Below, one piece after another: positions 51,339 through 53,374 of a stretch of 64,000 nucleotides of DNA. The stretch comes from Bacillota bacterium (GTDB lineage: Bacteria > Bacillota > Sulfobacillia > JAJZYS01 > JAJYTV01): positions 62,001 to 126,000 of the forward strand of contig JAJYSJ010000005.1 of the NCBI GenBank assembly GCA_021793645.1, given 5' to 3'. The notes below the pieces were generated by a model. It saw only the letters and a list, made by a program, of their open reading frames with translations, did not search any database and was not told the origin of the DNA. Both the position numbers and the translations under genes were made by a program. Numbering within the stretch: the stretch's first letter is position 1; every line of letters starts with the position of its first letter.

Positions 51339-51366
51339 TTGCATTGGCAGCACAGCGTGCTATATT
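51339..51366 (+). promoter_or_regulatory. Promoter of the M-box transcript
   Basis: TTGCAT (51339-51344), a 16-base spacer and TGCTATATT with -10 TATATT (51361-51366) predict a start near 51373, just ahead of the riboswitch. Confidence 0.65.
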
Positions 51367-51376
51367 GGTATTGGAT

Positions 51377-51536
51377 CGTCTGTTAGGTGAGGCTACCCGC
51401 GAGAGACATGCTCTTGCCCGGAAACATCGAGAGATGCCCACGGGTGAAACAGTTCCGGTCGGAAGAAGGCCGGAACCAGAGGGCTGGAGCCAAACGGTTC
51501 CTATGCCGCGCGGTGCTGAAGCTCAACGAGGAGACG
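51377..51536 (+). promoter_or_regulatory. M-box (ykoK) magnesium riboswitch
   Basis: The leader matches the M-box consensus in order: GTTAGGTGAGGCT at 51382, TGCCCGGAAACATCGAGAGA from 51415, ATGCCCACGGGT, AACAG, a variable hairpin (GTTCCGGTCGG...CCGGAAC), and GTGCTGAAGCTCAACGA at 51513-51529. P1 is closed by CGTCT (51377-51381) with AGACG (51532-51536) and GTT with AAC. M-box RNAs bind several magnesium ions and switch off transporter expression when magnesium is high. An intrinsic terminator follows at once, so control is by transcription termination. Confidence 0.92.
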
Positions 51537-51545
51537 CCAGTTTTT

Positions 51546-51576
51546 CTGGGCGTGTTCTCACGCCCAGATTTCTTTT
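51546..51576 (+). terminator. Riboswitch expression-platform terminator
   Basis: CTGGGCGTG (51546-51554) pairs with CACGCCCAG (51559-51567) over TTCT and is followed by ATTTCTTTT. GAGACGCCAG just upstream, which includes the 3' side of P1, can pair with part of this stem and act as antiterminator. Confidence 0.88.
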
Positions 51577-51762
51577 CGAAGGGGGGGATCGGCCGTGCCG
51601 GATGATAGTCCTGATGGGAAGCGCCGCGAGATGCTAGGCGGGACCACATGCGCGGCCCGGCCCCCCCAACGTCGTACTCGCTAGTCGGTACCCTTGGGGG
51701 CTTGCCCCTCGCCGTCGCTTCCCCTCATGCCGCTGCACGCGGAACGAGAAGGGGGCGAACGC

Positions 51763-53115
51763 ATGGACTCGGTGAACCTTCAGGACCTCGAACGCACACT
51801 GCCGCGGGACGTGCGTCAGCGTGCCCAGGACCGCGTGGAGATTCGTCGGGCGCGAGAGGCGAGCGGCATTCTCGGGCGCCTGAGGATCCTTCTGCTCCTT
51901 CTGGGGCCGGGGATCCTGGTGATGATCGCGGACAACGACGCCGGCGGCGTCATCACCTATGCACAAACCGGCGCCAGCTATCACCTCGGGTTCTTCATTC
52001 CCTTCCTCGTGCTGATGATCCCAGTGGCGTTCGTCGTCCAGGAGATGACGGTACGGCTGGGTGCGGTGACGCGCCGCGGCCACGCCGAGATGATTTTCAT
52101 GCGCTACGGGAGGTTCTGGGGAACGTTCTCGGCCCTCGACCTCGTCATCGCCAACGCGTTGACGCTCATTACGGAATTTATCGGCATCGGCGCAGGCCTC
52201 TCCGCCTTCGGCGTGCCGCTGCCGGCTGGAGTGCTGGCCGGGCTTGCCCTGGTGCTCCTCGTAACGCTGATCGGGCGCTACCGGCTATGGGAGCGCATCT
52301 CGCTTTGGATCGCACTCCTCAACCTCGTGTTCGTCCCGCTCGCACTGTACGCACACCCCAACTGGGCCCTCGTAGCACGCAGCTTCGGCAGCTGGCACGT
52401 CGCTGGAGGGGTGGACGGCACCTTCCTCATGCTGCTGCTGGCGAACCTCGGCACGACGATCGCACCATGGATGCTCTTCTTCCAGCAGTCGGCAGTCGTC
52501 GACAAGGGGCTGACTCCAAAGGAGATGCGCTTCGGTCGCATCGACACGATGGTCGGCGGGATCGTCATGGGGATCGTCGCGCTCGCAATCGTCATCCTTG
52601 CCGCGACCGTGATGCATGGTGTGCCGGGCTCCACCGGACTTGAGATCCAGAACATCCTCCAGGCGGTCGGCCGCAGGATCGGTCCAGCCGCGCAGTCGCT
52701 CTTCGCCCTAGGTCTTGTCGAGGCCGGCTTGATCGCCGCCATGGCGATCACCGCCAGCACTTCTTGGGCCGCAGGAGAAGCGCTCGGCCTAAGGGTGCGC
52801 AGCCTGAACGCGAAGCCCAAGGAGGCGCTCTCCTTCTACCTTCCCGGCGTCATCGCGGCAACGGTAGCAGCCTTTGTCGTGCTGATCCCCGGTGCACCCC
52901 TGGGGTACCTCAACATTCTCGTGCAGGTGTTGGCGACCGTCTTCATGCCCGCCGCTCTCCTCTTCCTGCTGCTGCTCGTCAACGACCGCGAGGTGATGGG
53001 CAGCTACGTCAACTCGAAGCTGCAGAATGTAGCCGCCATCGGGATAGTCGGTTTCCTCATCGTGATGAACGGGGCCTTCGGCGCCTCGATCCTCTTCCCG
53101 CATCTGATTCGCTAA
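51763..53115 (+). CDS. NRAMP-related divalent metal transporter, probably magnesium (NRMT type)
   Basis: This 450-residue transporter has about 11 helices after a 40-residue charged N-terminus. The NRAMP metal-site motifs are altered: helix 1 has ADNDAGG (57-62) where manganese/iron transporters have DPGN, and helix 6 has TTIAPWMLFFQ (APW at 234-236) where they have a MPH motif. The missing methionine and the DAGG form characterise NRAMP-related magnesium transporters. The M-box riboswitch 190 bases upstream fits magnesium uptake. The ATG at 51763 follows AAGGGGG by 7 bases. A 62-residue membrane protein follows in the same transcript. Manganese transport cannot be excluded. Confidence 0.9.
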   Translation: MDSVNLQDLERTLPRDVRQRAQDRVEIRRAREASGILGRLRILLLLLGPGILVMIADNDAGGVITYAQTGASYHLGFFIPFLVLMIPVAFVVQEMTVRLGAVTRRGHAEMIFMRYGRFWGTFSALDLVIANALTLITEFIGIGAGLSAFGVPLPAGVLAGLALVLLVTLIGRYRLWERISLWIALLNLVFVPLALYAHPNWALVARSFGSWHVAGGVDGTFLMLLLANLGTTIAPWMLFFQQSAVVDKGLTPKEMRFGRIDTMVGGIVMGIVALAIVILAATVMHGVPGSTGLEIQNILQAVGRRIGPAAQSLFALGLVEAGLIAAMAITASTSWAAGEALGLRVRSLNAKPKEALSFYLPGVIAATVAAFVVLIPGAPLGYLNILVQVLATVFMPAALLFLLLLVNDREVMGSYVNSKLQNVAAIGIVGFLIVMNGAFGASILFPHLIR

Positions 53116-53136
53116 GCCTGAAGGGAGGTACCGCCC

Positions 53137-53325
53137 ATGGCTCGTGCCATTGCACCGGACGAGATCCTCCGCATCGTCGACGAGGAGGACCTCCTGCAGG
53201 AACCGCCCGTCTACGGCCGCGTCGCCGTGCGCGGACCGATCGCCTTGGTCTGGTGGGGTCTGCGCATCTACGTGCTCCTCATGGCCGTCCTTGTTGCGGT
53301 CGGATTCGCACACGGTCTTCACTGA
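53137..53325 (+). CDS. 62-residue single-helix membrane protein
   Basis: This small protein has a charged, acidic N-terminal half (PDEILRIVDEEDLLQEPPVYG) and one membrane helix at residues 36-57 (IALVWWGLRIYVLLMAVLVAV). GGGAGGT lies 7-8 bases before the ATG, and the gene starts 21 bases after the transporter, so it is co-expressed under the M-box. No family recognised. It could be an accessory peptide of the transporter, which is inference from position. Confidence 0.7.
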   Translation: MARAIAPDEILRIVDEEDLLQEPPVYGRVAVRGPIALVWWGLRIYVLLMAVLVAVGFAHGLH

Positions 53326-53333
53326 TACGTCAA

Positions 53334-53374
53334 GGGGGAACTCTGGGCGGAGAAGGTCCGCCCGGAGTTCCCTC
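53334..53374. terminator. Bidirectional hairpin between convergent genes
   Basis: GGGAACTC-T-GGGCGGA pairs with TCCGCCC-G-GAGTTCCC over GAAGG, with one internal mismatch. It separates the transporter operon from the LysR gene. Confidence 0.8.

Follow-up and report, generated by a model that had tools for sequence, protein, structure and literature searches.

The stretch of DNA analyzed here (the window, 64,000 nucleotides of a Bacillota draft genome of 3.4 Mb in 94 contigs) contains a magnesium riboswitch, a gene for an NRAMP-related transporter of the magnesium type (NRMT) and, starting 21 bases past the transporter stop codon, a 62-codon ORF with a good ribosome binding site. The small ORF is a real, selected gene, and its product is a dedicated companion of one clade of NRMTs. 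In our view, these elements are likely to form a magnesium-import operon switched by an M-box, in which the small protein would serve as a subunit of the transporter NrmT.

A 2014 paper (PMC4072509) described NRMT genes under the control of an M-box and showed that their products transport magnesium, and the locus is a further instance of this known arrangement. The small protein is apparently undescribed: it has no match in Pfam, NCBIfam or PDB, and the passages of the open-access literature that were searched, including those from NRMT papers, gave no description of a small NRMT partner. The original prediction described positions 51339-53325 as a riboswitch and an NRMT. This part of the account stands; it was incomplete, as the interval ends at the stop codon of the 62-codon ORF, which was left unmentioned.

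Riboswitch and expression platform

The promoter, the M-box core and the terminator with its U-tract of the original prediction were all confirmed (Table 1). The promoter has a weak -35 element and scores under the threshold of a consensus scan, which reported none at this place; both hexamers and the spacer are unchanged in all six M-box loci checked in the window's genus and its sister genus. The cmscan gathering match to the M-box family RF00380 (113.9 bits, the cut-off being 44; E = 1.1e-24) spans the full-length aptamer (model positions 1-169). It is the only riboswitch that Rfam identifies in the window and the sole M-box of the genome. The terminator has a folding energy of -18.8 to -19.4 kcal/mol (z = -7.3), and an equivalent is present in most orthologs.

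In folding of growing transcripts, the minimum free energy structure of the transcripts ending at 51557 and 51560 is the antiterminator, which is replaced by P1 and the terminator in the transcript ending at 51576; an equivalent antiterminator pairing folds in five relatives. The terminator and antiterminator of the predicted expression platform exclude each other, which suggests a standard magnesium OFF switch, the control by magnesium itself being assumed from the known M-box family. The ykoK/mgtE M-box of Bacillus subtilis, also an RF00380 aptamer and a transcriptional OFF switch, controls mgtE, whereas the M-box of the window precedes an NRMT gene.

Table 1. Features of the M-box and NRMT locus (positions in the window)
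Feature	Position	Strand	Details
Promoter	51339..51366	+	TTGCAT (51339-51344), 16-nt spacer, TATATT (51361-51366)
M-box (ykoK leader) magnesium riboswitch aptamer	51372..51541	+	RF00380 match
Predicted antiterminator	51528..51559	+	3' strand of aptamer P1 pairs with 5' arm of terminator
Intrinsic terminator	51545..51576	+	Stem 51545-51568, then UUUCUUUU (U-tract)
NRMT-type NRAMP-related transporter, 450 aa	51763..53115	+	DAGG / TTIA-PW metal site; Asp126 in TM3
Small one-helix membrane protein, 62 aa (MARAIAPDEILRIV...WWGLRIYVLLMAVLVAVGFAHGLH), proposed NRMT partner subunit	53137..53325	+	SD AGGGAGG before ATG
Strong 3' hairpin after the operon, without U-tract	53334..53374	+	-38 kcal/mol, z = -5.75

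Identity and metal site of the transporter

The transporter matches the Pfam Nramp domain (219 bits) and carries the two motifs noted in the original prediction, DNDAGG in helix 1 and (GTTI)APW in helix 6. Its site, DAGG / TTIAPWM, combines a helix-1 DxxG with a helix-6 TxxA/T, lacks both the Met and the His pair, and agrees with the published NRMT consensus DxxG-TxxA (PMC8806188). Among solved structures, its best match is EleNRMT, a transporter of magnesium (E = 2e-53, against 6e-15 for MntH); a family profile, which itself contained an EleNRMT row, matched the solved structures of EleNRMT and MntH with E-values of 5.6e-163 and 1e-29, respectively. EleNRMT (7qia, TMt 0.88) is also the best fold match of an AF2 model of the read-through chain described below. 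EleNRMT of Eggerthella lenta (PDB 7qia; PMC8806188) shares with the window transporter the LeuT fold, the DxxG-TxxA site and the Trp after Pro in helix 6, but the two proteins are 33% identical and belong to sister clades, and EleNRMT has no Asp at the position of Asp126; its clostridial relatives are not accompanied by the small gene. The manganese transporters MntH and DraNramp have the Pfam Nramp fold in common with the window protein, from which they differ by their DPGN and MPH sites, their distant branch and the lack of the small gene.

Magnesium is very probably the substrate, because the site residues, the homology to EleNRMT and the riboswitch all point to it. The assignment as an NRMT is upheld by the agreement with the published site consensus, by EleNRMT as the best PDB relative, by a tree position far from MntH and by the M-box kept ahead of the transporter's orthologs. 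The expectation that annotation by name would yield a manganese transporter was not borne out: the curated MntH model reached 107 bits against a cut-off of 430, the DPGN and MPH motifs are absent, and the protein barely passes the generic model "Nramp family divalent metal transporter" (51.9 against 50). The closest named relative among the matches is from an acid-mine Bacillota MAG (L054), with a transporter 85% identical.

The Clostridium acetobutylicum nrmT genes (Ca_c0685 and Ca_c3329; Shin et al. 2014, PMC4072509) are likewise preceded by an M-box and a transcription terminator. The additional gene in their operon encodes a homolog of the MgtE N-terminal domain, in place of which the window operon has the one-helix LRxY protein. 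Such an MgtE_N-type companion is frequent with NRMTs and non-essential; neither MgtE nor MgtE_N (PF03448) was found in the genome of the window, which has one CorA match. The pairing of riboswitch and NRMT confirms the M-box as a means of distinguishing magnesium NRAMPs from those for manganese.

Phylogeny of the transporter

In a tree of 99 protein rows, MntH and DraNramp are split from all NRMT-like proteins, and the window protein is placed with the NRMT types, as the original prediction implied. The NRMT-like part consists of the EleNRMT/clostridial group, a small DAGS/AVIMPW paralog group and one large clade of 74 rows (SH-aLRT 96), which includes the window protein. This clade is sister to the EleNRMT/clostridial group and not inside it, the third paralog group lying between them (support 92 and 96). 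Within the clade, the window protein falls in a 35-row subclade (support 99) together with Alicyclobacillus, Sulfoacidibacillus, Acidithiobacillus and archaeal MAGs; an M-box lies upstream in 17 of the 35 rows, all of them from Bacillota-type loci.

A sister subgroup (L015-L025, L098, L105, L110, L111, L117-L120, L125-L129, L140) has a helix-1 motif ENDAPS or ENDGPS and a helix-6 motif GATVTPW, the latter with AxxT as in plant aluminium transporters, and keeps the small LRxY gene. The paralog group (L002/L026, encoded in the same genome as the window at C30:52617-53690, and L027, L028, L031-L034) has DTDAGS / GAVIMPW with the site Met kept, and has neither the small gene nor the TM3 Asp. The genome of the window also contains a further NRMT-like gene fragment at a contig end (C84:11616-11879; about 90 aa, 41% identical).

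A conserved one-helix gene beside NRMTs

In the small protein, a basic N-terminal segment is followed by a single hydrophobic helix starting with (F/W)WGLRxY. The LRxY motif is invariant, as are Arg43 and Tyr45 in the paired set. Orthologs are 84-90% identical in the genus and about 63-66% in the sister genus; differences between the genes cluster at third codon positions (6, 1 and 21 by position in one example), and dN/dS is about 0.06-0.2, which indicates purifying selection. The genes of this conserved family are recorded as "hypothetical protein", as in Acidithiobacillus caldus and Acidiphilium cryptum, or are unannotated, as in a Serratia plasmid.

The small gene is directly downstream in nearly all of 80 named NRMT loci, and in most of the apparent exceptions it is either somewhat farther off or cut or frame-shifted. 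An HMM built from 23 copies was searched against 18,357 six-frame ORFs taken from all loci and identified one ORF per locus, just 3' of nearly every NRMT of one well-supported, multi-phylum clade. Nothing scored below E = 1 in the loci that served as controls, namely those of MntH, of the DAGS/AVIMPW paralogs and of the EleNRMT type (L141-L163); the best value there was 5.5 (L157). Among 398 whole genomes of the phylum, all 10 strong HMM matches adjoin an NRMT gene, and none was found elsewhere at E < 1e-7; five weak matches away from NRMTs (E = 0.003-0.006) look like chance. Profile scores between single helices are inflated by their hydrophobic composition, which tells against the subunit reading. 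A chance ORF was ruled out by the profile distribution, the whole-genome neighbourhood and dN/dS, and homology to a solved chain was rejected for want of a PDB match.

The small gene also accompanies two related groups in which the site is altered (DAPS or DGPS / ATVTPW). The small protein is not tied to magnesium alone, since the clade includes members with other site residues.

Fusions and membrane topology

A C-terminal extension was found on NRMTs of Cellulomonas, Paraburkholderia, Methylobacterium, Streptomyces, Rhodococcus, Burkholderia and Alicyclobacillus curvatus plasmids. In these proteins of about 550 aa, TM11 is followed first by an extra helix of hydrophobic character, next by a linker containing WRMPPL or WRMSPL, and last by a helix with LRGY or LRAY. 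The small-protein HMM gives weak matches at the C-terminus of five long NRMTs (E = 0.007 to 1.9), and comparison of the tail profile with the small-protein profile by hhalign gave E = 2.6e-6 and a probability of 89. The two proteins are fused in some lineages and encoded side by side in others, a classical sign that points to a physical partnership.

The free small proteins have 93 K/R residues before the helix and 2 after it. The small helix is probably inserted N-in, with its N-terminus in the cytosol, because of this bias and because the extra helix of the fused proteins fits such a topology.

Asp126 and a possible intramembrane contact

All 92 clade rows that have the small gene, and all 7 fused proteins, carry Asp126 in TM3, against 0 of 23 rows of the two groups without the small gene; the residue arose once on the tree, which makes these counts one event and not 99, and Asp126 a clade marker instead of an independent statistic. 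Gly120 follows the same pattern, and Ala391, Ala398 and Leu133 are nearly as strict. According to the topology reading, the helices of Arg43 and Asp126 both enter the membrane from the cytosolic side, and each of the two residues comes about eight positions after the start of its helix. We hypothesize that Arg43 of the LRxY motif and Asp126 form an intramembrane pair.

A role of Asp126 in the known TM3 proton path was considered and set aside as improbable: it sits 12 residues before Glu138 and, by alignment, off the DraNramp positions Glu124 and Asp131, and is probably on a different face. In the divergent NRMT-like protein of L030, the Asp126 equivalent is present beside a different small ORF, with no LRxY gene. 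An AlphaFold run on the NRMT and small protein as one read-through chain (32 paired rows, stops read as residues) gave the right fold for the transporter; the small protein appears in it only as one helix joined by a disordered stretch, with pLDDT of 67-75 and no readable interface.

Proposed function and alternative explanations

The locus would be a magnesium-starvation operon of a Bacillota bacterium of acid-mine type, composed of promoter, M-box, terminator, nrmT and the small gene. At high cytosolic magnesium, the M-box would compact and P1 would keep the antiterminator strand, with the result that the terminator forms and transcription stops; at low magnesium, the antiterminator would form, and both nrmT and the small gene would be made. 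This switching is modeled on the known M-box mechanism, and the RNA elements come from the covariance model and folding. NrmT would import magnesium; as for EleNRMT, the ion is probably carried in a partly hydrated state and without coupling to protons. The most likely role of the 62-aa protein is that of a constitutive single-helix subunit, which may pack on the transporter near TM3/TM10, where Arg43 could pair with Asp126, and may be needed for the stability of the transporter or for its gating and activity.

Short single-helix partners of larger membrane proteins include MgtS, KdpF, AcrZ and CydX. The likeness to the 62-aa protein is one of kind, a short single-helix protein with a larger membrane protein; its family differs from them in a family-wide operon link and natural fusions. 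Extending this reading, we lean towards the view that the large multi-phylum NRMT clade, including its members from archaeal MAGs, is made up of two-part transporters whose dedicated one-helix subunit, whether separate or fused, is held in place by the Arg-Asp pair, and that the one-part NRMTs studied to date (EleNRMT and those of C. acetobutylicum) represent the other branch.

One alternative is the published arrangement alone, an M-box with a complete one-component NRMT and a small ORF that is unrelated or non-functional. EleNRMT carries magnesium without such a subunit (PMC8806188), so that the NRMT fold does not require one, and both EleNRMT-type and clostridial NRMTs lack the small gene. 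For the window locus, this explanation is quite unlikely given the purifying selection on the small gene, its adjacency to the transporter across phyla, its absence elsewhere in the 398 genomes at the above threshold and the similar helix fused to the transporter in some lineages. Import of manganese or another metal, with the M-box merely tying the transporter to magnesium status, is unlikely. At least one NRMT-type protein, from Acidobacterium capsulatum, acted as a manganese transporter, rescuing manganese uptake fully and magnesium uptake weakly (PMC4072509), and sister subgroups of the clade have altered site residues. The A. capsulatum gene, however, has no M-box, whereas that of the window is kept in orthologs; the window site is exactly that of EleNRMT (DAGG/TTIAPW), and the M-box-driven C. 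acetobutylicum proteins carried magnesium (PMC4072509).

Two further alternatives concern the small protein itself. Enterobacteria have single-helix regulators of magnesium transporters, and this precedent, together with the shared operon and riboswitch, makes it possible, though less likely than the subunit role, that the protein is a regulator or inhibitor that tunes uptake at low magnesium, like the small proteins acting on MgtA, and not a structural subunit; a constitutive part agrees better with the 1:1 operon order at nearly every clade member and with the natural fusion. Many bacterial NRAMPs have 11 helices, whereas those of animals have 12, and the small protein, which adds one helix, could be seen as the twelfth transmembrane helix of the fold in detached form. 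This origin is highly unlikely, as a separate hydrophobic helix precedes the LRxY helix in the fused proteins and the N-in charge pattern is opposite to that of TM12, which enters from outside.

As a subunit of NrmT, the small protein would matter more than the riboswitch-NRMT pair, for it offers a testable interface, Arg43-Asp126, and a marker of a functional NRMT clade. NRMTs were reported to be hard to express and reconstitute, 82 having been tested for one usable protein (PMC8806188); expression of many of them without their subunit, if that is the case, may be one reason for the difficulty.

Variant loci

Several related loci differ in the company of the NRMT gene. A conjugative Serratia marcescens IncHI2 plasmid (CP068396; L166, 3682-3876) has an NRMT gene, an unannotated small LRxY gene and a gene for an MgtE_N/CBS-type protein in a row. 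In an acid-mine proteobacterium, a fluoride riboswitch (RF01734; L090, 4627-4697) lies just 3' of the pair of NRMT and small gene. The pair also occurs, without an M-box, on contigs that binning assigned to Micrarchaeota, Thermoplasmata or Marsarchaeota (L055, L068, L069, L073, L082-L084, L095), which may reflect either horizontal transfer among acidophiles or binning errors. Two NRMT genes are arranged in tandem in L187 (952-3876): the downstream one (ENDAPS) has the small gene, and the upstream one (GNAIAPW) has neither the small gene nor the TM3 Asp. Two divergent NRMT-like genes, L030 (1501-2691) and L186 (1081-2568, minus strand; GNAMAPW), are followed at the stop codon by a different one-helix ORF of 37-38 aa without LRxY, possibly a second kind of small partner.
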